Source: Geopsychrobacter sp.
Lineage (GTDB): Bacteria; Desulfobacterota; Desulfuromonadia; Desulfuromonadales; Geopsychrobacteraceae
Assembly (NCBI GenBank): GCA_012974425.1
Contig: JAAXQE010000315.1
Location: 1 to 32,358, forward strand
Length of the DNA: 32,358 bases
Direction: 5' to 3'
Shown here: piece after piece, positions 6,499 to 19,309 of the stretch
Numbering within the stretch: position 1 is the first letter of the stretch
Layout of the letters: every line of letters starts with the position of its first letter
Made by a program: the position numbers and the translations under genes
The notes under the pieces: generated by a model
Told to the model about the DNA's origin: nothing
Database searches by the model: none
The model's input: the letters and a program-made list of their open reading frames with translations, nothing else

Positions 6499-7080
6499 AT
6501 GGACTTTTTGACCCTATTCGGCATTGCCGTGGCTTTAGCCATGGATGCCTTCGCGGTGGCGCTTGCTACCGGACTGATGCTACCCAAGCTAACCGGCCGC
6601 CACCTGTTTCGCTTCGGATTTCACTTTGGACTCTTCCAGGCCCTGATGCCGCTGATCGGCTGGTACGCAGGTCGAGGTTTGCGCACCAGCATAGAGGCCT
6701 ATGATCATTGGATTGCCTTTGTCTTACTGGCTGTTATCGGCATTCGTATGTGCCACGGCGCCCTTCAGGCGGCAGAAGATCAGGACGAACGGAAAGATCC
6801 GACGCGGGGCTGGTCACTGGTGATGCTCTCAGTCGCAACCAGTATCGATGCCTTAGCAGTCGGCTTGACTCTGGCAATGCTCGGCAGCGAAATCTTCATC
6901 CCCGCCCTGACCATCGGTCTGGTCTGCGCGGTCCTGACTCTGGTGGGCATGTATCTGGGACGTAAAATTGGCCGCAACTGGGGGCCGAAGGTTGAATTTG
7001 TGGGTGGCCTTATCCTGCTGGGAATTGGCATAAAAATTCTACTAGAGCACACCCTCCCCTTAAGGATGGTGATTAAGTGA
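6499..7080 (+). CDS. mntP: manganese efflux pump MntP
   Basis: The protein has 193 aa and six predicted membrane segments in two homologous halves. The family's paired Asp motifs are MDAFAVALATG near the N-terminus and SIDALAVGL in the second half. It exports Mn2+ from the cytoplasm. The ATG at 6499 is preferred over an in-frame TTG at 6487 because it places the first motif about 14 residues in, as in E. coli MntP; neither start has a strong ribosome site. No yybP-ykoY (Mn) riboswitch fits in the 72 bp upstream. Its stop overlaps the GTG start of aguA by 4 nt. Confidence 0.9.
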   Translation: MDFLTLFGIAVALAMDAFAVALATGLMLPKLTGRHLFRFGFHFGLFQALMPLIGWYAGRGLRTSIEAYDHWIAFVLLAVIGIRMCHGALQAAEDQDERKDPTRGWSLVMLSVATSIDALAVGLTLAMLGSEIFIPALTIGLVCAVLTLVGMYLGRKIGRNWGPKVEFVGGLILLGIGIKILLEHTLPLRMVIK

Positions 7081-8114
7081 CACATAACCAGACCCGACGC
7101 CTGCCCGCAGAGTGGGAAGCACAGGACGCTGTCTTATTGGCCTGGCCCCATGAACTAACCGACTGGGCCAATCAACTTGCAGAAGCACAAAAAACCTATT
7201 GCGACATTATCCACGCCATAAGCCGTTTTGAACAGGTTATCCTGATCGTTGCAGATAAAGCCCAGGTTCTCAAACAGCTTCAGAACAGGGGCCTCAACCT
7301 GGCTAGGGTCCACCTCTATGAGCTTCCCTGCAATGACACCTGGGCCCGGGATTTTGGCCCATTAACCGTTCAGACCAAACAGGGGCTGCTCCTGCTAGAT
7401 TTCGTTTTCAACGGCTGGGGTAATAAATTCAAGGCCGATCTCGACACCAAGCTCACAGTTGGGTTAGCTGCGGCAGGTGCATTTGGTCTAACCAGGTTCC
7501 TAGCGAGTGAGCTTGTCCTTGAAGGGGGGGCCCTTGAATCAGATGGAGCGGGAACCCTGCTCACAACCAGTCAATGCCTTCTCGAAAAGAATCGCAACCC
7601 ACATCTCTCACGCAGCCAGCTTGAGATTGAGCTGAAAGGGCTATTCGGTGCGGAACAGGTTCTCTGGTTGGATCAGGGTTCGCTGCAGGGGGATGACACC
7701 GACAGTCACATAGATACCCTGGCCCGCTTTGCACCCAATGGTACAATTGTTTTCCAGGGCTGCGATGATCCTAACGATGATCACTTTCAGGAGCTCTCTG
7801 CCATGCGTGACCAACTGGCCAGCTTCGCTACCTGCAACGGCAGTTGCTACCGTCTCCTAGAACTCCCCTGGCCCCAAGCCTGTTATGATTCCGAGGGGGA
7901 TCGGCTCCCCGCGACTTACGCCAATTTTCTCATCATCAATGGGGCGGTCCTGGTGCCGAGCTACAATGATCCAGCCGACCCGGCGGCACGCGCTGTCATC
8001 GCACAGGCCTTTTCAGATAGAGAAATTATCCCCATCGATTGTCGCGTTCTGATCGAGCAACATGGTTCTTTGCACTGTGTCACCATGCAACTACCCAAGG
8101 GAGTTTTGCCATGA
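7077..8114 (+). CDS. aguA: agmatine deiminase
   Basis: The 345-aa enzyme hydrolyses agmatine to N-carbamoylputrescine and ammonia. It shows the guanidine-modifying family layout: RLPAEWEAQDAVLLAWPH at the N-terminus, NDTWARDFGPL (about residue 85), a DDTDSHIDTLARF segment with the catalytic His, and GSLHC with the nucleophile C334 close to the C-terminus. The start is GTG at 7077, sharing GTGA with the mntP stop, and the stop overlaps the aguB ATG. The three genes are therefore translationally coupled. With aguB it forms the two-step, urea-free route from agmatine to putrescine. Confidence 0.95.
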   Translation: MTHNQTRRLPAEWEAQDAVLLAWPHELTDWANQLAEAQKTYCDIIHAISRFEQVILIVADKAQVLKQLQNRGLNLARVHLYELPCNDTWARDFGPLTVQTKQGLLLLDFVFNGWGNKFKADLDTKLTVGLAAAGAFGLTRFLASELVLEGGALESDGAGTLLTTSQCLLEKNRNPHLSRSQLEIELKGLFGAEQVLWLDQGSLQGDDTDSHIDTLARFAPNGTIVFQGCDDPNDDHFQELSAMRDQLASFATCNGSCYRLLELPWPQACYDSEGDRLPATYANFLIINGAVLVPSYNDPADPAARAVIAQAFSDREIIPIDCRVLIEQHGSLHCVTMQLPKGVLP

Positions 8115-8986
8115 ATATAAAGACGGCACTGATCCAGCAGAAACGCTCTGCCAATCTGCAGGCAAATATCGACCAAACCTGTGCTGAAATACGCGAGGCG
8201 GCGGCAGAGGGTGCACAGTTAATCCTCTTGCAGGAGCTTCACAACAGCCTCTATTTCTGCCAGATTGAGGCGACAGACTGCTTCGATCTGGCCGAGACCA
8301 TCCCCGGCCCATCAACCGAGCTTTTTTCGGCCTTGGCGTCTGAGCTGGGAATTGTTCTGGTTTTATCCCTCTTTGAAAAACGCAGCGCCGGTCTCTATCA
8401 CAACACAGCCGTAGTCATAGAAAACGACGGTCAAATTCTCGGACGCTATCGCAAGATGCATATCCCGGATGATCCCGGTTTCTATGAAAAATTCTACTTT
8501 ACCGAAGGTGACCTCGGCTTCGAACCGATTCAAACCTCCCTCGGCAAACTCGGGGTTCTTGTCTGTTGGGATCAGTGGTTTCCTGAAGCTGCTCGGCTTA
8601 TGGCGTTGGCTGGCGCTGAAATCCTGATCTATCCAACGGCCATCGGTTGGGATCCGGCAGATTCCGAAGCAGAAAAAAAACGCCAACTCGAAGCATGGAT
8701 AACCGTTCAGCGTGGGCACGCAATCGCAAATGGCATCCCATTAATTGCGGTCAATCGCAGTGGCAGTGAAACATCCTCAGACAAACGCAATCAGATCGAT
8801 TTCTGGGGCAACAGCTTTGCCTGTGGCCCACAGGGGGAATTCCTGGTTCAAACTGATGAAGAAGAAGCAACAGTGCTGGTCGATATCGACCTGGAACGGA
8901 GTGAACAAATCCGGAGGATCTGGCCATTTTTGCGCGACCGGCGCATCGGCGCTTACGCAGACCTGTGCAAAAGATTTCGTGACTGA
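8111..8986 (+). CDS. aguB: N-carbamoylputrescine amidase
   Basis: This 291-aa nitrilase-superfamily enzyme cleaves N-carbamoylputrescine to putrescine, CO2 and ammonia. The catalytic triad is visible: E42 in LLQELHNSLYF, K115 in YRKMHIPDDPGFYEKFYF and C152 in VCWDQWFPEAARLM. The HIPDDPGFYEKFYF and WDQWFPE signatures favour AguB over other nitrilases. The ATG at 8111 overlaps the aguA stop (ATGA) and has GGGAG 6 nt upstream; the frame extends to 8039, but that would bury the start inside aguA. A strong terminator follows within 8 nt. Confidence 0.95.
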   Translation: MNIKTALIQQKRSANLQANIDQTCAEIREAAAEGAQLILLQELHNSLYFCQIEATDCFDLAETIPGPSTELFSALASELGIVLVLSLFEKRSAGLYHNTAVVIENDGQILGRYRKMHIPDDPGFYEKFYFTEGDLGFEPIQTSLGKLGVLVCWDQWFPEAARLMALAGAEILIYPTAIGWDPADSEAEKKRQLEAWITVQRGHAIANGIPLIAVNRSGSETSSDKRNQIDFWGNSFACGPQGEFLVQTDEEEATVLVDIDLERSEQIRRIWPFLRDRRIGAYADLCKRFRD

Positions 8987-10331: not shown

Positions 10332-12113
10332 CTAAATAACGAACTCCCCAAAGAGATCGGGCAAGCGCCGCCGCATTTCGCGATCCAGGTGCGCGGCGAC
10401 CTCCCTACCGGTCGAAAGCTGCAGCAGATCATCCAACAGCAGTTGGCTCTCGGTGCGCGTCAGATTGCGCAACACCCTCTTGACCCGTGGGATACAGGCA
10501 TGATTCATCGATAATTCACCGAGTCCCAACCCCAGCAGGACCGGAGCATAGATCGGTTCAGAGGCCATCTCGCCACAGATGCTGACATCAATTTCCGCGG
10601 CGTGAGCCGCATCACAAACCGACTTCAGCGCTCTCAAAATAGCGGGATGTAATGGCTCATAGAGATATGAAACATTCTCATTGCCGCGATCAACCGCGAG
10701 GCAGTACTGGATCAGGTCATTGGTGCCAATCGAGAAAAAATCGACCTCTTGGGCCAGCAGCGGCGCTATAAAAACTGCAGCCGGAGTTTCGATCATGATG
10801 CCGATTTTAATCTGAGAATCGAATAAAACCCCTTCCTGTTCAAGTTCGAGCTTAGCGGCACGCAAGATTCTTTTGCAAGCCAAAATCTCCGCGACACCAC
10901 TGATCATCGGAAACATAATCCGCACCTGACCGAGAGCAGAGGCCCTTAAGATTGCACGCAACTGGACCTTGAACAGATCAACCTCACGCAATGAAAAACG
11001 GATCGCCCTGAGTCCCATCGCCGGGTTATCTTCGCGCTCAAGATTCATACCCTGGACAAACTTGTCTCCACCCACATCCAGCGTTCGGATCGTAACCGGG
11101 TGGGGTGAAATACTTTCGACAATCCGACTGTAGGCCGCAAACTGCTCATCCTCGCCCGGAGGCTGGCGGCAATTCATATAGAGGAACTCTGTCCGATAGA
11201 GACCGATACCAACCGCTCCATCTTCAAGTGCCGCAGGGACCTCGGAAAGCAGCTCAAGATTAGCCCTTAAGGCCACCTTAAAATTATCGGCTGTCTCTGC
11301 TGGCAGATCGCGATAACGGGCGAGTTCCTTCTCCAGATACTCAAAGGCCAACTTACGCTTCAGATATTCCTTGAAGGTCTCCTCACTGGGGTTTAAAACC
11401 ACAACCCCGGTGGTCCCATCAATAATCGCCGGCATATCCCTATCGACCACAGCCGTCGCTGAGTCGAGACCAACAACAGCGGGAATCCCCAAAGATCGCG
11501 CCAAGATGGCGGTATGTGATGTTTTTCCACCTCGGTCGGTCATGAAACCGACAACCTTATTCCGGTCGAGTTGCATCGTATCGGCTGGCGAAAGATCATG
11601 CGCAGCAATCAAAGATTTTTCCTTGATCTGTTCCAGAGTCGTGTCGTTGGCTCCAGCCAAAATTCTGAGCAAACGCTGGCCGACAGCATCAAGATCCGAA
11701 CTGCGTTCACGCAGATAATCATCTTCGATGTTTTCAAACATGAGCCTGAGCTGCTTCAGGTTCTGATCGAGCGCTCTTTCCGCGTTGATCTTCTGCCGGA
11801 TCAAGACCTCGGTGCTGTCAACCAGCATCTCATCCTCAAGGATCAACATATGGGTATCAAGGATATAGATATGTTCTCGTAGGTGAGGCTGGCTGGCAAC
11901 CTTCTGCTTAACTTCACTCAGCTGAGTTTTTGCTTTATCCAAGGCATTCCGAAAGCGCAGAATTTCATCTTCAACTTCACCTTCGTCCAGCGCCCAATCA
12001 GCCACATGGTAAAGGCGATTCAGCAGACAAACCCGCCCGATACCGATACCCGGCGACACACCAAGACCAATCAGATAAGTATCTTTTCTAACCTCAGTCT
12101 TCCCCAAAGCCAT
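10332..12113 (-). CDS. ptsI: PTS enzyme I (phosphoenolpyruvate-protein phosphotransferase)
   Basis: The 593-aa cytosolic enzyme takes phosphate from PEP and passes it to HPr. The phospho-histidine is H200 in TDRGGKTSHTAILARSLGIPAVVG. The C-terminal PEP-binding TIM barrel shows ALYRTEFLYM-like (GLYRTEFLYM), FSIGTNDLIQY and the catalytic Cys in SICGEMASEP. It lacks an N-terminal GAF domain, so it is EI rather than EI-Ntr (PtsP). The start at 12113 overlaps the last 20 nt of ptsH, which suggests coupled translation; a GAGG directly touching the ATG is the only ribosome-site candidate. Confidence 0.95.
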   Translation of the reverse strand: MALGKTEVRKDTYLIGLGVSPGIGIGRVCLLNRLYHVADWALDEGEVEDEILRFRNALDKAKTQLSEVKQKVASQPHLREHIYILDTHMLILEDEMLVDSTEVLIRQKINAERALDQNLKQLRLMFENIEDDYLRERSSDLDAVGQRLLRILAGANDTTLEQIKEKSLIAAHDLSPADTMQLDRNKVVGFMTDRGGKTSHTAILARSLGIPAVVGLDSATAVVDRDMPAIIDGTTGVVVLNPSEETFKEYLKRKLAFEYLEKELARYRDLPAETADNFKVALRANLELLSEVPAALEDGAVGIGLYRTEFLYMNCRQPPGEDEQFAAYSRIVESISPHPVTIRTLDVGGDKFVQGMNLEREDNPAMGLRAIRFSLREVDLFKVQLRAILRASALGQVRIMFPMISGVAEILACKRILRAAKLELEQEGVLFDSQIKIGIMIETPAAVFIAPLLAQEVDFFSIGTNDLIQYCLAVDRGNENVSYLYEPLHPAILRALKSVCDAAHAAEIDVSICGEMASEPIYAPVLLGLGLGELSMNHACIPRVKRVLRNLTRTESQLLLDDLLQLSTGREVAAHLDREMRRRLPDLFGEFVI

Positions 12114-12363
12114 CCTCTATCAGCGCCGTTAAAGCATCCATAGCTGCGGTCTCATCATCACCTGAGACAGTCAATGCGATCACTGTCCCTTTGGGTGCAG
12201 CAAGCAACAAGATCCCCATGATACTTTTACCGTTGACCTCGATACCTTCTTTTTCAACCAGGACGTCACTATTAAAGCGATTGGCAGTCTGTACCAACTG
12301 AGCGGCAGCACGCGCGTGAAGTCCAAGACGATTAACGATAGTAAAACTTTTTTGCAAGGGCAT
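12094..12363 (-). CDS. ptsH: phosphocarrier protein HPr
   Basis: The 89-aa product has H16 in NRLGLHARAAAQL, phosphorylated by enzyme I, and S47 in VNGKSIMGILLL, the regulatory serine targeted by HPr kinase. Both sites are present, matching the hprK gene in the same block. The ATG at 12363 aligns with known HPr starts; an in-frame TTG at 12384 would overlap the EIID gene. AAGGGG sits only one base before the ATG, which is unusually close. The gene follows the EIID stop by 8 nt and overlaps ptsI. Confidence 0.95.
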   Translation of the reverse strand: MPLQKSFTIVNRLGLHARAAAQLVQTANRFNSDVLVEKEGIEVNGKSIMGILLLAAPKGTVIALTVSGDDETAAMDALTALIEDGFGED

Positions 12364-12371
12364 TCCCCTTA

Positions 12372-13142
12372 TTAAGGTAGCCAAACCGCAACATCTGCGG
12401 AGAAAAGGCTACAAAGCATAATTAATCCAGCGGACAGTAAAACCAACATAAGTGTCGAAATTCCACGTCCGGCCAAATAAGCACAGAGCAGAACGGCGGG
12501 TACAGCCAGAAAACCGAGCCATAATGGTTTTTTCTCTATATTGAGCAGTTGAAAAACCATAAATGCCGCGACGCCACCCAGCAGGACAACGGAGGTTTCT
12601 TTCGTTCTGATTGCCAGATCTGGCAGATTGCGATGCTGCAAAAACTCGACAGATTTAACTCCAAGTTCATAACCACTCAGGAAACCGACGATACGAAACC
12701 AGAGCGGCAAAGCATTAAACAGCAGTAAAAACACAATTGGTGCAATGGCCAGACCCTTTGAGGCGAGCAGCAGACTGATCCCGGCAGCCAATGGTCGTAA
12801 GCCTCCCCAGAAAAGGGCATCTCCGACAGCCGCGTAGGGTGCAGCGACCATCTCCTTGAACTCTGCAATACCGATTTCCGGTTCTCGGCCAGCGGCTCTT
12901 TCGAGTTCAATCCGAATAACCGCTCCGGCAACCGAAGGTGCCAGATAAGGGTGGGTATTAAAATATCCGACATGCTCTCGCGCAATACGGCGCAGCTCTT
13001 TTTCGCCATAGAGTGTGCGTAGTACCGGTACCATCGCATAGAACCAGCCTCCACCCTGCAGTCGTTCAAAATTCCAGCTCCCCTGCAACAACAGGAGGCG
13101 TAGCCAGACTTGGAGTAGCCTAAGTTTTCCGAGACTCTGCAT
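12372..13142 (-). CDS. PTS mannose-family permease component IID
   Basis: The 256-aa product matches EIID of the mannose family: QGSWNFERLQGGGWFYAMVPVLRTLYG close to the N-terminus (about 20-46) and several hydrophobic segments in the C-terminal half ending FSADVAVWLP. With EIIC it would form the membrane channel. The ATG at 13142 overlaps the EIIC stop by one base (TGATG); a GTG 12 nt further upstream is possible. It is slightly shorter than ManZ of E. coli (about 285 aa). The transported sugar cannot be told. Confidence 0.88.
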   Translation of the reverse strand: MQSLGKLRLLQVWLRLLLLQGSWNFERLQGGGWFYAMVPVLRTLYGEKELRRIAREHVGYFNTHPYLAPSVAGAVIRIELERAAGREPEIGIAEFKEMVAAPYAAVGDALFWGGLRPLAAGISLLLASKGLAIAPIVFLLLFNALPLWFRIVGFLSGYELGVKSVEFLQHRNLPDLAIRTKETSVVLLGGVAAFMVFQLLNIEKKPLWLGFLAVPAVLLCAYLAGRGISTLMLVLLSAGLIMLCSLFSADVAVWLP

Positions 13143-13834
13143 CACACCAACCACATCAATAAAAAGGCCATGCCGAAGGAAGCTCCGAACAATGTCAAGG
13201 ATCTACTAACATTGATCGTCCCCAGAATTACCGCGATACCGACCAGTGGCAGAGCAATCCTCAGCCATTGCGCTGTTGCTTCAAGGGAGGGAAGTAATAA
13301 CGGCGCCAAAAGGGGGATCATAAGCAGGCCGCCACAAATAATGACAAAGTAAGTGCCCAGGGATGCCAGGGCAAAACAGCAGATCCCCATACGATGCGCC
13401 TGCTCAATGGCACGGAACTGGCCAGCCTCCAGATAGCTGTCACTCAGAGCCAGATTACGGCCGTTATACTGGCGGGCAAAACGATCGAAGAACTGACCAA
13501 ACTTGCCCAGCGGAATAGTAATCAGCAAACAAAGCAACTGATATTCCAGGCCACTCTGTCCGAGCACCTGTCCCAGACTTACCGCCAGCACGGTTCCCGC
13601 AATTGCAACCTGAGTATCATCAGGCGGAATAGCCGCACCGACCGGCAGACGCGCCAGCCAGAGAAGCTCAACCATCAGACCTATCTCCAGACCAATGCCG
13701 ACATCACCGAGCAGCCAGCCTGCAAGTGGTGCCGCAACGATCGGGCGCGAAATCATGACCTGCAGGGCAGCAACCCTGTCTAAACCACAAACAAGGGCCA
13801 CTCCGGCGCCGATAGCAAGTTCCGTGACGATCAA
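13142..13834 (-). CDS. PTS mannose-family permease component IIC
   Basis: A very hydrophobic protein of about 230 aa with the EIIC pattern LDRVAALQVMISRPIVAAPLAGWLLGD and EIGLMVELLWLARLPVGAAIPPDD. It is the membrane partner of EIID. The start is uncertain: the TTG at 13834 overlaps the EIIB stop (TTGA), has AAGG about 8 nt upstream and gives a start like other family members. The in-frame ATG at 13870 would add 12 residues and overlap EIIB by 40 nt. Confidence 0.87.
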   Translation of the reverse strand: MIVTELAIGAGVALVCGLDRVAALQVMISRPIVAAPLAGWLLGDVGIGLEIGLMVELLWLARLPVGAAIPPDDTQVAIAGTVLAVSLGQVLGQSGLEYQLLCLLITIPLGKFGQFFDRFARQYNGRNLALSDSYLEAGQFRAIEQAHRMGICCFALASLGTYFVIICGGLLMIPLLAPLLLPSLEATAQWLRIALPLVGIAVILGTINVSRSLTLFGASFGMAFLLMWLV

Positions 13835-14325
13835 ATTCCAGCCTTCTTCGCAGGAAGCAAGCGCCGCCAATTCCGGGCGGTATCTGCGGGGATACAGCGC
13901 GCCGAGATATCAACTCCGCTACCATCTATCTGCTCAAGGTTTTCAACATCAACAGGATCGAGAAAAACGGTGCAGCTGCACTGGGTTTTCCCCAGCCCGG
14001 CGTGGAGATTACCAAGGTTCAAACGTTCAAACTTAAGCCCATGCCGCAAGGCTTCAAGGCTATCTGCTGTCGTAGCGAACAACAACAGTACCCGCAGCTC
14101 GTCGAGCTTACCGCTATTAAAGAGTTCGACTATCTCTGTGATACTGCCGATCTCAACCCGAATACGACTCGGCACTGAAGCCTCCATCATCATCCGCTTG
14201 AGAGGGGAAGAAGAAATATCCCCGTTGGCCACTACCAGGCAGTTGGCATGGACATAAGGAACCCAGGTCTCCAGAATTTGTCCATGTATAAGGCGGGTAT
14301 CAATACGGGCTAGAACAATACTCAT
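13831..14325 (-). CDS. PTS mannose-family component IIB
   Basis: The 164-aa cytoplasmic protein has the EIIB active site DTRLIHGQI, with phospho-histidine H14. It accepts phosphate from EIIA and hands it to the sugar at the EIIC/EIID channel. GGAG lies 6 nt before the ATG. It follows the EIIA gene by 15 nt and overlaps EIIC. Domain and length are typical of free-standing IIB proteins (about 160 aa). Confidence 0.92.
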   Translation of the reverse strand: MSIVLARIDTRLIHGQILETWVPYVHANCLVVANGDISSSPLKRMMMEASVPSRIRVEIGSITEIVELFNSGKLDELRVLLLFATTADSLEALRHGLKFERLNLGNLHAGLGKTQCSCTVFLDPVDVENLEQIDGSGVDISARCIPADTARNWRRLLPAKKAGI

Positions 14326-14340
14326 CCAAACTCCGGTTTT

Positions 14341-14748
14341 TCACTTCATGCATTTCAATAAATCGGCAGGACGCAGAATCGCCTGTTGTCCATACTCACG
14401 TAAAAATTCTGCGAGTCCAGTGAGATTTTTCTGGGTCCTTACACTGGCGGCTTTGATCAACATTGGCAAATTTATCCCAGTCAGGATATCGACCCGCCCT
14501 GAAGCAAGAAAATCCGCAGCAATATTGGTCGGTGTACCGCCGAACATGTCAGTCAGAATCAAGACTCCATCGTCATCACCACCAACCTCATCAAGCGCCT
14601 GTGCAAGGCAAGCGGTCGCCTCATCAACGGAACAGCTTCCATCGATACTGATCGCACGGCAAGCGGCAATCGGACCAATTATCATTTCAGCAGAGCGCAG
14701 ACATTCCGCCGCCATCTGCCCATGGGTAAGAACAACAAGACCTATCAT
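14341..14748 (-). CDS. PTS mannose-family component IIA
   Basis: The 135-aa cytoplasmic protein has H9 in VVLTHGQMA as phospho-acceptor from HPr and the conserved TDMFGGTPTNIA segment. EIIA and EIIB are separate genes here, unlike the fused ManX of E. coli. GGAAT sits before the ATG. It lies 51 bp after rapZ in the same direction. Confidence 0.93.
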   Translation of the reverse strand: MIGLVVLTHGQMAAECLRSAEMIIGPIAACRAISIDGSCSVDEATACLAQALDEVGGDDDGVLILTDMFGGTPTNIAADFLASGRVDILTGINLPMLIKAASVRTQKNLTGLAEFLREYGQQAILRPADLLKCMK

Positions 14749-14799
14749 TTCATTCCACTTACATGAATGAGGAACTATCGGTAATACAGTGAGACCCCC

Positions 14800-15663
14800 T
14801 TACCCCTTTTCGACATCACGATGGTACACGCGCAGTCGCATATCCTTGCCAGACAAGCGTCGCGCAAACTCTTCCACCAGAGAAACACTCCGATGACGAC
14901 CACCAGTGCAGCCTATCGCCAGGGTCAGATAACTCTTCCCTTCGCTATGATAGCACGGCAGCAGGAATTCAAGCATCCTGCCGAGATGTCCGATAAAGGT
15001 CTGGCAGGCGTCCTGTTCGAGCACATATTTTTGGATCCCTAGATCCAGGCCAGTGAGCGGCCGTAACTCGCTTATATAGTAGGGATTCGGCAGAAAACGG
15101 ACATCAAAAACCAAATCGGCATTTGGTGGCAGACCGTAGCGAAAGCCAAAGGATTCTATCTGCAACAGCAGTGGTGCAGACTCACTCTCCCCGAGACTGT
15201 CCAGCAGCAAACCCTTCAATTGATGGGGGTTGAGCCCACTGCTGTTGATGACCCGGGTCGCACTCCCCTTGACATTTTGCAGAAGTTCCCGTTCCATATT
15301 GATCGCAGCACTTAAGTTTTCAGCATCGGCCAGAGGGTGGATTCTGCGTGTTTCGGAATAACGACGCAGCAAAACTTCATCCGAAGCCTCAAAAAAAAGA
15401 ATCCGCAGAGGATGGCCCATCCCGGCAACCTGGGTGATAATAGACTCATACTGCGCCAGAAAGTCACGATTTCGGACATCGATAACCACGGCCAGATCAC
15501 GCTCAGCATCCAACGCGCCCTCGGTCAGCTCCAGACATTGCGGCAGAAGCGTCAACGGCAAATTATCAATTACAAAAAAACCCCGATCTTCGAGGACCCG
15601 GGCCGCAGTACTCTTGCCTGATCCGGACAGACCTGTGAGGACATAAACCGGCTTTTTACTCAT
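14800..15663 (-). CDS. rapZ: RNase adapter / nucleotide-binding protein RapZ
   Basis: The 287-aa product has the Walker A GLSGSGKS at 11-18 and the RapZ C-terminal signature AIGCTGGRHRSVSLVEEFARRL. In E. coli RapZ guides RNase E to the GlmZ small RNA and so controls GlmS (glucosamine-6-P synthesis), feeding cell-envelope precursors. Whether a GlmZ system exists in this organism is not known; in other bacteria the protein binds nucleotides with less clear roles. Its ATG overlaps the hprK stop by 4 nt. Confidence 0.93.
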   Translation of the reverse strand: MSKKPVYVLTGLSGSGKSTAARVLEDRGFFVIDNLPLTLLPQCLELTEGALDAERDLAVVIDVRNRDFLAQYESIITQVAGMGHPLRILFFEASDEVLLRRYSETRRIHPLADAENLSAAINMERELLQNVKGSATRVINSSGLNPHQLKGLLLDSLGESESAPLLLQIESFGFRYGLPPNADLVFDVRFLPNPYYISELRPLTGLDLGIQKYVLEQDACQTFIGHLGRMLEFLLPCYHSEGKSYLTLAIGCTGGRHRSVSLVEEFARRLSGKDMRLRVYHRDVEKG

Positions 15664-16634
15664 TCCAGATTATCTCCGATAATGGTATGAGCGTGCAAAC
15701 GCGCCGCTTCAGCCATCCGTTTTTCAAGCAGATACTGAAATTCCTGAGCACTGTGATAGCCCATCTCTTTCAGCAACTGATTGCGTGCGGCAACTTCAAC
15801 GATGGTACTGGTATTGCGCCCCTGACGGACTGGAATGCGCATCATCGGGATCTTAACGCCGTGGATGAGGTAGCTATCCTCTTCAAGGCCTAAGCGATCA
15901 TACTCTTCACCCTGCTCCCATTCGACAAGCTGCAAGACAAGATCGATCTTCTTCCGTTCGCGAATCGCAGCAACCCCAAAGAGATGCTTAATATTAATAA
16001 TACCGAGCCCACGAATCTCCATATGATAATGCAGCAGATCCATCCCTTCGCCAAAGATGACGGAAGGCAATTTAAGTCGCACCTTAATCACATCATCTGC
16101 AACCAGACGGTAACCACGCAGAATCAGGTCGAGAGCACACTCACTCTTGCCGACCCCGCTCTTGCCCTGTAAAAGAACTCCAACTCCCAGAACATCAATC
16201 AGGACTCCATGCAGTGTCGAAGAGGGCAGCAGGCGCTCTTCCAGAAATTTGGTAATCAGAGAGATGAAATCTGAACTCAGGTGACAGCTGCGGAGCAGCG
16301 GGGTGTGATGCTCGTCAGCGGCCCGCAACAGATAGTCCGGGACCTCCTGATTCTTTGTCACCACCAGACAGGAGAGTTGACGGGCGCAAAGATCTTTGGC
16401 GGCGGTGAGCGCTTTATCTTCGGGCAATTGGACGAGATAACTCAGCTCTGTTGAGCCGAGGACCTGAATCCGGTCAGGATGAAGGTTTGCGTAATAACCA
16501 GCTAGAGCAAGGCCAGGTTTCTGAATACGCGGGACAGAGATGGCGCGAGAAAGACCATCAGCGCCAGCCAGCAACTCAAGATCAAGCCCTGCTTCTCTCT
16601 CGTCTAGAATTTCCTGAATCGTCAATTCTGTCAT
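15660..16634 (-). CDS. hprK: HPr kinase/phosphorylase
   Basis: The 324-aa product has an N-terminal domain (about 1-130), the conserved LHGVLIDVLG segment, Walker A GKSGVGKS (157-164) and the HprK signature MEIRGLGIINI (205-215). It phosphorylates and dephosphorylates HPr on the regulatory serine, and S47 of the HPr encoded nearby is present. It is the full-length form with its N-terminal domain, not the truncated alphaproteobacterial type. No strong ribosome site precedes the ATG at 16634. It overlaps rapZ by 4 nt. Confidence 0.94.
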   Translation of the reverse strand: MTELTIQEILDEREAGLDLELLAGADGLSRAISVPRIQKPGLALAGYYANLHPDRIQVLGSTELSYLVQLPEDKALTAAKDLCARQLSCLVVTKNQEVPDYLLRAADEHHTPLLRSCHLSSDFISLITKFLEERLLPSSTLHGVLIDVLGVGVLLQGKSGVGKSECALDLILRGYRLVADDVIKVRLKLPSVIFGEGMDLLHYHMEIRGLGIINIKHLFGVAAIRERKKIDLVLQLVEWEQGEEYDRLGLEEDSYLIHGVKIPMMRIPVRQGRNTSTIVEVAARNQLLKEMGYHSAQEFQYLLEKRMAEAARLHAHTIIGDNLE

Positions 16635-16690
16635 GGCTGCAGAAGGTGGTCTCCATCCGGGTAAACAAGGGGATCGGTCGAAACTCTTTA

Positions 16691-17146
16691 TTAATCTTCC
16701 CGCTCACAAATGAGCCGATAAATCTGTTCTGAACTTGTTGCGTCCAGCATCTGTTGACGAACTCCGACATCTTTCAAAAGTTTTGAGATTCTCGCCAGAG
16801 CCTTCAGATGCACACCAACTGACTCTTCGGGAGCAAGCAGTAAAAAGAAGAGGTGGGCTGGCTGCCCATCCATCGATTCGAAATCGACACCTGCTGAACT
16901 GCGGCCAAAAGCCAGCATCAGCTCCGGCATCCCTTTGAGTTTGCCATGGGGAATCGCAACTCCATCTCCGATACCGGTACTCCCGAGACGCTCACGCTCC
17001 TGCAAAACCTGAAGCACTTCGTCCCGCCGCAGCGATGGTGCAACAGTCAGTAGGGCATCGGTCAGTTCGGAGAGGGCAGCATCCTTGCCAGTCGCCTTCA
17101 TATCAGCAACGATCGCTTGCGGGTTTAAAAGCTCACTGATTTTCAT
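16691..17146 (-). CDS. ptsN: PTS-Ntr EIIA (nitrogen regulatory IIA)
   Basis: The 151-aa product of the fructose/Ntr IIA family has the phospho-histidine H67 in GIGDGVAIPHGKLKGM. It acts as a regulator rather than a transporter part. The ATG at 17146 begins MKISELLNPQAI, as in other PtsN proteins; the frame extends to 17194, but that extension crosses part of the long hairpin at 17181-17216. The gene order rpoN-hpf-ptsN-rapZ is the classic proteobacterial one, here with hprK added. Without a PtsP or NPr in the window, its phosphate donor would be the HPr/enzyme I encoded downstream. Confidence 0.93.
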   Translation of the reverse strand: MKISELLNPQAIVADMKATGKDAALSELTDALLTVAPSLRRDEVLQVLQERERLGSTGIGDGVAIPHGKLKGMPELMLAFGRSSAGVDFESMDGQPAHLFFLLLAPEESVGVHLKALARISKLLKDVGVRQQMLDATSSEQIYRLICERED

Positions 17147-17228: not shown

Positions 17229-17777
17229 TTAACGGCCTTGAGGAACGATCAGACCATAGTTGCCATCGTCACGTCGATAAACAACGTTCATCTCCTCGGA
17301 GCGGTCATCGGTAAAAACCAGAAAATTTTTATCAAGCAGATCCATCTGCATTACCGCCTCTTCAACCGACATCGGCTTAACGAAGAATGAGTGGCTCTTG
17401 ACGATATCTGGCTCGCTGGCCCCTTCATCAACGCTCGTAGCGGTCATGACAGTTTTCTGCATCTGGCGGCTACCAGATTTTCCAGCCTTATGGTGTTTAA
17501 GCTTCTCTTTATATTTTTTGAGCTGACGCTCAATCTTATCGACCATCAGGTCGATTGCGGCATACATATCCCCCGTCTCTTCCGCACTCTTCATGGTCAG
17601 CCCTTTGGCAACCATGGTAACTTCGGCCCGATGATGAATCTTTTTCTGAACCGATAGAACGACTTGAGCATCAATCGGCTCACCAACGTATTTCTTAACA
17701 CGTGAGAGCTTCTCTTCAACATAGGTACGAACTGCTTCACTGCTTTCCATGTGACGGAAGTTTACGGCAATTTGCAT
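17229..17777 (-). CDS. hpf: ribosome hibernation promoting factor, long form
   Basis: The 182-aa product has an N-terminal S30AE domain (about 1-100: MQIAVNFRHMESSEAVRTYV, with KIHHRAEVTM) and a C-terminal dimerisation domain (about 125-182: SFFVKPMSVEEAVMQMDLLDKNFLVFTD). This is the long HPF, which pairs 70S ribosomes into inactive 100S dimers when growth slows. AAGGAG sits 9 nt before the ATG at 17777. A short out-of-frame ATG in the leader (about 17796) opens a 19-codon frame overlapping the start. It lies between rpoN and ptsN as in many proteobacteria. Confidence 0.95.
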   Translation of the reverse strand: MQIAVNFRHMESSEAVRTYVEEKLSRVKKYVGEPIDAQVVLSVQKKIHHRAEVTMVAKGLTMKSAEETGDMYAAIDLMVDKIERQLKKYKEKLKHHKAGKSGSRQMQKTVMTATSVDEGASEPDIVKSHSFFVKPMSVEEAVMQMDLLDKNFLVFTDDRSEEMNVVYRRDDGNYGLIVPQGR

Positions 17778-17875: not shown

Positions 17876-19309
17876 TCAAAACAACCTTTTCCGCTCAGTC
17901 GAAGAGCCGATTCCAAGCATTTCGCGGTACTTGGTTACGGTACGGCGCGCAATATGAATATCGCACTCCTTCAGCAATTGAACTATTTTTTGATCAGACA
18001 GAGGTTTTTTGGGATCCTCCTTGGAGACAATCTCCTTGATCCGAATTTTAACACTCTCCGATGCGACCGAATCTCCATCTGTGGTCGAAATCCCACTATT
18101 GAAGAAATATTTAAGTTCAAACAAACCCTGAGGAGTTTGAACATATTTATTCGTTGTCACGCGACTGACCGTCGATTCATGCATTTCGATATCTTCTGCT
18201 ACATCACGCAGGACCAGCGGCTTGAGATGCTCGATGCCATAATCGAAAAATTGGCGTTGGAATTTGACGATACTCTTAGTGACCTTATAGATGGTGCGCT
18301 GACGCTGATGAATACTCTTGATCAACCAGACAGCACTACGCATCTTGTCCTGGATGTACTCCCCGGCCTTCTTGTCAACAGACTCGCTGTTGGTCAGGGC
18401 AGACCGGTAGAAAGAGTTGATCCTCAGGTTAGGCAGACCTTCGTCATTCAGAGTAACAACATACTCATCGCCAACCTTGTGGACAAAGATATCGGGTGAA
18501 ATATAGTGGACATCTTCCTGGTTAAAGGCACGGCCCGGGCGCGGGTCAAGTTCTGAGACAATCTTGGCCGCCAGCAGTACTTCTTCCAGCGGGACCTTGA
18601 GTGCTCGGGCAATAATCGGGTATTTGCGCCCCTCGATATCATCGATGTGATCACGCAATATCGTAGCAGAGAGAGAATCCTCCTGTCCCAAGCGCTCAAG
18701 TTGAAGCAGCAGACATTCCTGCAGATTGCGGCCAGCCACACCTGGCGGGTCGAACTGCTGAATCCGCATAAGGGCCTTAGCAGCAGTCTCTTCATCGACC
18801 GCAGTGGCGGTACAGATATCTTCGAGATCGGCATGCAGATAACCGGCATCATCAATATTGCCAATAATTTCTGCGCCAGCCTGATGCTCAGCTTCGGGGA
18901 CGTTGGAGAGGTTGAGTTGCCACATCAAGTGGTCGAACAGGGTGCTTTTCTTGGTTAACAAACTTTCAAAGGAGGGGCGATCTTCATTGTCCTCATAGAC
19001 ATCACTGGTCGATGTGCTACTCAGGCTATAACCCTCGAGGTAGGTCTGCCAGTCGATATCATCAACCGCATCCGCCTCGTTCTTTACCTCTTCGGAGTTC
19101 TCTTCGTCTGCAGATTTCTCCTCAACCTGTGGCTCGGCCGCCGCCTGCTCTTCACTCTCCTCGAGCATCGGGTTTTCGGACAACTCCTCAGTCACAACAT
19201 CGAGCAATTCCATCCGCGATAACTGCAGCAGCTTGATGGCCTGCTGCAACTGCGGAGTCATCACCAGTTGTTGGCTGAGCTTAACCTGTAAACGTAGATC
19301 TAAAGCCAT
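17876..19309 (-). CDS. rpoN: RNA polymerase sigma-54 factor
   Basis: The 477-aa product has region I, rich in Gln and Leu (LRLQVKLSQQLVMTPQLQQA, the activator-responsive part), then an acidic region II (about 50-100), then the core-binding domain and the -12 binding helix-turn-helix segment. The RpoN box ARRTVTKYRE is at about 454-463, close to the C-terminus, which recognises the -24 element. All regions are present. It follows lptB with a 160-bp gap that contains a sigma-54-like element, suggesting its own regulation. Confidence 0.97.
   Translation of the reverse strand: MALDLRLQVKLSQQLVMTPQLQQAIKLLQLSRMELLDVVTEELSENPMLEESEEQAAAEPQVEEKSADEENSEEVKNEADAVDDIDWQTYLEGYSLSSTSTSDVYEDNEDRPSFESLLTKKSTLFDHLMWQLNLSNVPEAEHQAGAEIIGNIDDAGYLHADLEDICTATAVDEETAAKALMRIQQFDPPGVAGRNLQECLLLQLERLGQEDSLSATILRDHIDDIEGRKYPIIARALKVPLEEVLLAAKIVSELDPRPGRAFNQEDVHYISPDIFVHKVGDEYVVTLNDEGLPNLRINSFYRSALTNSESVDKKAGEYIQDKMRSAVWLIKSIHQRQRTIYKVTKSIVKFQRQFFDYGIEHLKPLVLRDVAEDIEMHESTVSRVTTNKYVQTPQGLFELKYFFNSGISTTDGDSVASESVKIRIKEIVSKEDPKKPLSDQKIVQLLKECDIHIARRTVTKYREMLGIGSSTERKRLF

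Follow-up and report, generated by a model that had tools for sequence, protein, structure and literature searches.

Comas et al. 2008 (PMC2405797) set out an rpoN-linked cluster of Proteobacteria that encodes parts of a phosphotransferase system (PTS): the Enzyme I (EI) known as EI-R, the phosphocarrier HPr, HprK, PtsN (EIIA-Ntr), and the mannose-class protein IIA-Man. The same paper raises the idea that IIB, IIC, and IID (IIBCD) were possibly ancestral and later lost in most lineages, and it gives G. sulfurreducens as having both EI-R and EI-Ntr and D. vulgaris as having a putative mannose-class transporter. In Brucella melitensis, both EIIAs receive phosphate from one phosphocarrier, whose Ser61 is phosphorylated by HprK (PMC2937029), and a 2026 review describes PtsO of alpha-proteobacteria as passing its phosphate to two terminal acceptors, ManX and PtsN (PMC13104625). 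A carrier shared by EIIA-Man and EIIA-Ntr is thus already established elsewhere. Here we compare with these systems a block of PTS-related genes of Geopsychrobacter sp. (order Desulfuromonadales), found on a stretch of 32,358 nucleotides (contig JAAXQE010000315.1; hereafter the window) that is the entire contig C200 of a 3.28 Mb draft genome. Among the papers listed by our literature searches, we found nothing more specific on this PTS in the order than Comas et al. 2008, whose main text mentions neither 'Pelobacter' nor 'Desulfuromonas', and nothing for Pelobacter carbinolicus.

The block probably encodes a working rpoN-linked PTS of the proteobacterial type that has kept a mannose-class permease and in which one HPr feeds transport on one side and PtsN on the other. 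We analyzed the genes, phosphorylation sites, the single HPr, a second Enzyme I, purifying selection, and predicted fold, and from these we infer phosphotransfer, transport, and regulation. Nine genes on the minus strand, from 10332 to 17146, encode EI, HPr, IID, IIC, IIB, IIA-Man, RapZ, HprK, and PtsN. A sequence-only reading of the window had placed all of these but RapZ in one block; each component it named was present as an open minus-strand frame with family matches, within the coordinates it gave, and its His16 and Ser47 of HPr were borne out when numbered from the ATG at 12363.

In the direction of transcription the series runs hpf, ptsN, hprK, rapZ, IIA, IIB, IIC, IID, ptsH, ptsI, and upstream of it are rpoN and an ABC ATPase gene that resembles lptB (a name taken from reading the sequence), both of which recur in that place in the loci of relatives. 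With the starts that we chose, neighbors from ptsN to ptsI overlap by no more than 20 bases or are separated by no more than 56 bases, and because they overlap or nearly abut, they are likely to form one transcript. As in the rpoN-linked EI-R cluster, rpoN, ptsN, hprK, and the genes for IIA-Man, HPr, and EI are collinear. The marks of a Man/Sor permease were present as well (IIA, IIB, IIC, and IID by Pfam, the IIB His, and a predicted mannose-type PTS [man-PTS] fold), as were those of a PTS controlled by HprK/P, namely the HprK Walker A motif and signature and the HPr Ser.

The phosphorylation sites were invariant. We aligned the window proteins with those from 93 loci, excluding E. coli and dropping beforehand any protein shorter than 85% of its window counterpart. 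The His and the Ser of HPr were each found in 82/82 rows, and the active His was kept in EI (79/79), IIA-Man (90/90), IIB (RLIHGQ; 83/83), and PtsN (82/82). Mannose-class IIB proteins are phosphorylated on His and not on Cys. The Walker Lys of HprK was kept in all 92 rows. Two single-contig genomes (G039 and G059; loci L042 and L043) had no HprK at the locus or anywhere in the genome and retained IIABCD and the HPr Ser.

The genome encodes one HPr and two Enzymes I. A genome-wide domain search gave a single HPr match, with no second HPr domain and no dedicated NPr, so we conclude that the genome has no NPr; there was likewise one EIIA-Man. Across 60 genomes of the order, this one included, HPr was matched in 57 and exactly once in 53. 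The extra matches, in G017, G020, G035, and G053, all fell inside frames of 848-937 amino acids (aa) and are therefore likely fusions. No HPr match was found in G001, G010, and G028 (70, 88, and 98% complete); G010 had EI solely as a PtsP-sized frame, and its IIC was not found either. A search of the Geopsychrobacter genome for EI N-terminal domains found a second one on contig C248, in a PtsP with GAF and EI domains, and HPr may thus have two Enzyme I donors. The ptsP gene is flanked by a frame resembling a sigma-54 activator and by a DeoR-like regulator, both named from sequence. The earlier statement that PtsP and NPr are absent held for the window and, for NPr, for the whole genome, but not for PtsP; of a separate PtsP/NPr pair, which that reading had named as a refuting finding, half was found.

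The block was ordinary for its order. We gathered 80 named loci by HprK similarity, so that the counts cover loci with HprK; the relatives were titled Desulfuromonas, Desulfuromusa, Malonomonas, Geobacter and kin, or 'Desulfuromonadales', 'Deltaproteobacteria', or 'Thermodesulfobacteriota', and one was titled Chloroflexi. All nine genes were found in the same order and on the same strand in 61/80 loci, and 12 more ran off the end of the contig or locus. The seven Geobacter-like loci (L128-L134, one titled Desulfuromonadaceae) retained HprK-RapZ-IIA-HPr and lacked PtsN, IIB, IIC, and IID, and two of them also lacked EI at the locus. The genomes of these seven had no match to the IIC family PF03609, and six of the seven encoded an EIIA_2 domain at some location. 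PF03609 was found in 58/60 genomes of the order.

IIC and IID look maintained as a permease, judged from sequence and from predicted structure. In two pairs of close relatives, the ratio of nonsynonymous to synonymous substitution rates (dN/dS) was 0.088 and 0.028 for IIC and 0.034 and 0.051 for IID, within the range of the other block genes (EI, 0.112 and 0.037; HprK, 0.067 and 0.023; PtsN, 0.031 and 0.050; IIA, 0.070 and 0.175), with synonymous sites close to saturation in the second pair. IID shares the SWN and GD-FWG-RP motifs with ManZ, and the positions of ManZ Asn33 and Asp120 were Asn in 72/77 rows and Asp in 77/77 rows, respectively. Change of N28 to Lys in the IID of L. lactis, which equals ManZ Asn33 by motif, accompanies loss of mannose and glucose uptake (PMC10783117). 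AlphaFold models of IIC and IID, made from 13-row alignments, had predicted local distance difference test scores (pLDDT) of 84.8 and 80.3. The best Foldseek matches of the IIC model were man-PTS IIC chains (best E value of 3.6e-5, template modeling [TM] scores per query of 0.49-0.60), and those of the IID model were man-PTS IID chains (best E value of 3.5e-8, TM scores of 0.56-0.75, with 0.75 for 6k1h_C). The IIC model was poor right at the pocket, with pLDDT below 50 at residues 35-37 and 77-79. The 210 records of plasmid-borne IIC relatives were all below 60% identity (the 15 listed were at about 28-32%), and we saw no sign of recent transfer of IIC among the plasmids of that collection.

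Several findings weighed against a working PTS with a shared HPr. IIC departed from ManY at three pocket positions in all 82 IIC rows (81 distinct sequences; L047 is identical to L075): the position of Asp25 held an uncharged residue throughout (Leu in 52 rows, Asp in none), that of Glu26 was Gln, and that of Asn65 was Pro. The IIC family match was weak, at 79 bits for Pfam and 36-54 bits for NCBIfam IIC models with cut-offs of 278-340, and IIA, IIB, IID, and PtsN also matched the right NCBIfam families with scores below the curated cut-offs. The phospho-His motifs of PtsP (TNSHSVIMAK) and of the block EI (KTSHTAILAR) differ, and the use of this HPr by both enzymes is a proposal. Because the Geobacter-like relatives lack IIBCD and two complete genomes lack HprK, neither IIBCD nor HprK is indispensable. 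To our knowledge, the order is not known for using sugars.

The differences in the IIC pocket appeared to bear on the cargo and not on transport itself. Our statements about the pocket draw on parts of PMC10783117 and PMC11403280; in L. lactis, PtnC D25Y accompanies loss of mannose and glucose uptake (PMC10783117). The pocket residue that marks mannose- and glucose-specific man-PTS, ManY Asp25, was missing. Asp-Arg was found at the positions of ManY Gly21-Ser22 in every IIC row, in an Asp-Arg...Gln pattern that was equally invariant (82/82). With Asp25 and Glu26 replaced and this pattern fixed, mannose or glucose would be an unlikely cargo. AgaC, which is annotated as cryptic, and three transporter-type IICs from plasmids served as controls; these too were without the Asp25-Glu26 pair, with Glu in AgaC where ManY has Asp25. 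The difference therefore argues against mannose and glucose, not against transport, and we dropped loss of Asp25 as proof of non-transport. The Asp-Arg pair itself was absent from ManY, AgaC, and the three plasmid-borne IICs, although three of these five had a single Asp nearby. The invariant pattern suggests a putative binding site rather than decay. The prior claim that having both IIC and IID argues for real transport was supported in that the pair looks like a maintained permease by dN/dS, motifs, and predicted fold, but 'sugar transport' in the sense of mannose became doubtful.

IIC relatives extend beyond the order. A search with the 13-row IIC alignment found them in 86/297 sampled genomes of the phylum Desulfobacterota, and in none of seven listed genomes from another order of the same class. 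We hand-picked 40 of these 86, covering strong as well as weak matches, and took the surroundings of IIC in each. The His residues of IIA and IIB were intact in all 40. IID, HPr, and EI were beside IIC in 21 loci, 20 of which also had HprK. The other 19 (L186, L190, L193-L195, L197, L198, L201, L202, and L208-L217; L198 has just 878 bases past IIC) had IIA-IIB-IIC, with RapZ in 14, PtsN in 6, and HprK in 1; IID, HPr, and EI were not detected at these loci with profiles built from the order and applied to the locus only. Asp, Arg, and Gln were all present in 21/21 loci with IID-HPr-EI, compared to 8/19 of the others, and the Asp-Arg pair was broken in eight of the 19. Relatedness could explain this difference, since the 19 loci hold the remotest matches. 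The IIC signature that we propose is an Asp-Arg pair followed about nine residues later by a conserved Arg-Pro, an invariant Gln lying between the two; it would occur together with IID, HPr, and EI, and in most cases with HprK. It is possible, and we offer it tentatively, that a Desulfobacterota IIC subfamily with this signature carries an unrecognized solute, in bacteria not known to live on sugars, whose flux sets the phosphate on PtsN and EIIA-Man via one HPr, the permease being the sensor of a sigma-54-linked regulatory PTS. Nature provides a series on the role of the permease: the full block, the block without HprK (two genomes), loci without IIBCD and PtsN (Geobacter-like), and IIABC without an adjacent IID.

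The shared HPr may serve more than the two EIIAs of the block. The genome has three PTS_EIIA_2 domains, that of PtsN and two in fusion proteins of 719 and 706 aa that join an amino-acid permease, EIIA_2, and TrkA_C. Both fusions have LPHFR, with its His, where PtsN has IPHGK (read from the sequence, unaligned), and HPr could therefore feed more than two EIIAs. A search of open papers for permease-EIIA fusions found nothing, and a scan of one fusion against a library of defense families matched none. No glucose/fructose-type IIC (PF02378, the only other IIC class searched) was found in the genome. The idea that a single HPr serves both EIIA-Man and EIIA-Ntr fits one HPr genome-wide and the intact His in both EIIAs, but the picture of one donor and two acceptors is too narrow if there are two EI donors and more EIIAs.

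Under the interpretation that we favor, phosphoenolpyruvate would phosphorylate EI and, separately, PtsP, and either would pass phosphate to His16 of HPr. From there, phosphate would go through EIIA-Man and IIB to a solute carried by IIC and IID, and also to PtsN, which would act as a regulator. Uptake of solute would drain phosphate via IIA and IIB, leaving less on PtsN and IIA-Man, and HprK would slow the entire relay by phosphorylating Ser47 of HPr. The cargo would be a small solute that is neither mannose nor glucose. These anaerobes are not known to live on sugars, and the identity of the cargo would reveal the signal that feeds PtsN in them.

It is doubtful that the PTS is purely regulatory, with IIC and IID as a non-transporting membrane sensor or anchor and IIA, IIB, and PtsN as signaling phospho-acceptors. 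The ManY pocket residues missing from all IIC rows, the uptake loss that accompanies PtnC D25Y (PMC10783117), the 19 of 40 phylum loci in which IIA-IIB-IIC has intact His and neither IID nor HPr nor EI was detected nearby, and the Geobacter-like loci that hold HprK-RapZ-IIA-HPr without a permease would all fit such a system. However, AgaC and the plasmid-borne IICs lack the Asp25-Glu26 pair too, the core of IID is retained, purifying selection on IIC and IID is strong, and the invariant Asp-Arg...Gln suggests a binding site over decay.

We consider two insulated relays improbable, in which PtsP and HPr would serve PtsN, and EI and HPr the permease, with timing or complexes keeping cross-talk low. 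A PtsP in this genome and at least two EI N-terminal domains in 46/60 genomes of the order (one in 14/60) point that way, but just one free HPr is available to both. Furthermore, eight of the nine sampled genomes of genus g4 had a single EI match, in a frame of 594-595 aa, the size of the block EI, and all nine had IIC (PtsN was not searched genome-wide there). It seems very improbable that the block is what is left of an ancestral sugar PTS in the course of decay. The absence of IIB, IIC, and IID from 7/7 Geobacter-like loci and of PF03609 from those genomes is what decay would leave, but the frames are open, sites are invariant, dN/dS is low, and PF03609 persists in most genomes of the order; on the first three of these points we rejected decay of the permease.

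The gene calls are given in Table 1. We picked the starts of HPr, IIC, and PtsN from the lengths of relatives and from upstream sequence. Pfam matches for all PTS components and HprK were above the curated cut-offs; for PtsN, TIGR01419 gave 109 bits with a cut-off of 138.7, whereas PF00359 was above its own. The motif ARRTVTKYRE is named the RpoN box in PMC2725144. Elsewhere in the window (7077-8986), genes resembling those for agmatine deiminase and N-carbamoylputrescine amidase, a putrescine route, lie near a metK-like gene (all named by reading the sequence).

Table 1. Genes of the PTS block, its upstream neighbors, and related genes on other contigs of the genome.
Feature	Coordinates	Strand	Properties
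EI (ptsI)	10332..12113	-	593 aa; motif GGKTSHTAI; Pfam PF05524, PF00391, PF02896; passes NCBIfam curated cut-off
HPr (ptsH)	12094..12363	-	ATG at 12363; His16, Ser47; Pfam 6e-30; passes NCBIfam curated cut-off
Mannose-class IID	12372..13154	-	260 aa; start at 13154, 13145, or 13142; PF03613 7e-45; man-PTS Z chains down to 4e-34
Mannose-class IIC	13142..13834	-	230 aa with TTG at 13834; a longer open frame begins at 13870; PF03609 4e-22
Mannose-class IIB	13831..14325	-	motif RLIHGQ; PF03830 2e-39
Mannose-class IIA (IIA-Man)	14341..14748	-	motif LTHGQM; PF03610 7e-22
RapZ	14800..15663	-	between IIA and HprK; NCBIfam PRK05416 1e-99, above cut-off
HprK/P	15660..16634	-	full length; N and C domains 2e-33, 2e-64; Walker A GKSGVGKS; signature MEIRGLGII; TIGR00679 2e-108, above cut-off
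PtsN (EIIA-Ntr)	16691..17146	-	ATG at 17146; motif AIPHGK; PF00359 8e-32
Hpf, ribosome hibernation factor	17229..17777	-	upstream neighbor; family matches
RpoN (sigma-54)	17876..19309	-	upstream neighbor; ARRTVTKYRE (RpoN box); name rests on the box, no family search
PtsP	L038:1723-4059 (contig C248)		778 aa; TTG start; GAF and EI domains; outside the window
Permease fusion 1	L039:2394-4553 (contig C102)	-	amino-acid permease, EIIA_2, TrkA_C
Permease fusion 2	L040:2221-4341 (contig C46)	+	amino-acid permease, EIIA_2, TrkA_C

The permease branch resembled E. coli ManXYZ and the man-PTS of lactic acid bacteria and Listeria (6k1h, 7dyr, 8hfs, 7vlx) in its IIA to IID classes, the His of IIA and IIB, and the fold of IIC and IID. 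It differed in having IIA and IIB as separate proteins, in the presence of HprK, in the replacement of IIC Asp25, Glu26, and Asn65, and in an IID without a counterpart for ManZ 213-223 and 230-237. PtsN and, encoded elsewhere in the genome, PtsP are common to this system and the E. coli PTS-Ntr (PtsP-NPr-PtsN; PMC5024086), but here there is no separate NPr, HPr being shared.

The Brucella relay of EI-Ntr, NPr, EIIA-Ntr, an EIIA-Man-like protein, and HprK, like this one, has one carrier, two EIIAs, and HprK acting on a Ser of the carrier. As described in PMC2937029, Brucella has four PTS proteins only and no permease, and its HprK lacks about 130 N-terminal residues; the HprK here has its N domain, unlike that truncated alpha-proteobacterial form. 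Xanthomonas campestris clusters the same core genes (PtsI, PtsH, EIIA-Man, HprK, and EIIA-Ntr), with no EIIB or EIIC in the account that we draw on (PMC6916182). The cluster of Comas et al. has the same gene set adjoining rpoN, whereas here IIA and HPr are separated by IIBCD within the block, and a separate PtsP accompanies one HPr. To that earlier work we add three points: in one order, nearly every sampled member has the full block; PtsP occurs with a single HPr; and IIC has a distinct signature. Comas et al. thought it possibly ancestral for the rpoN-linked regulatory PTS to include its permease, and this is the arrangement that most of the sampled order still shows.

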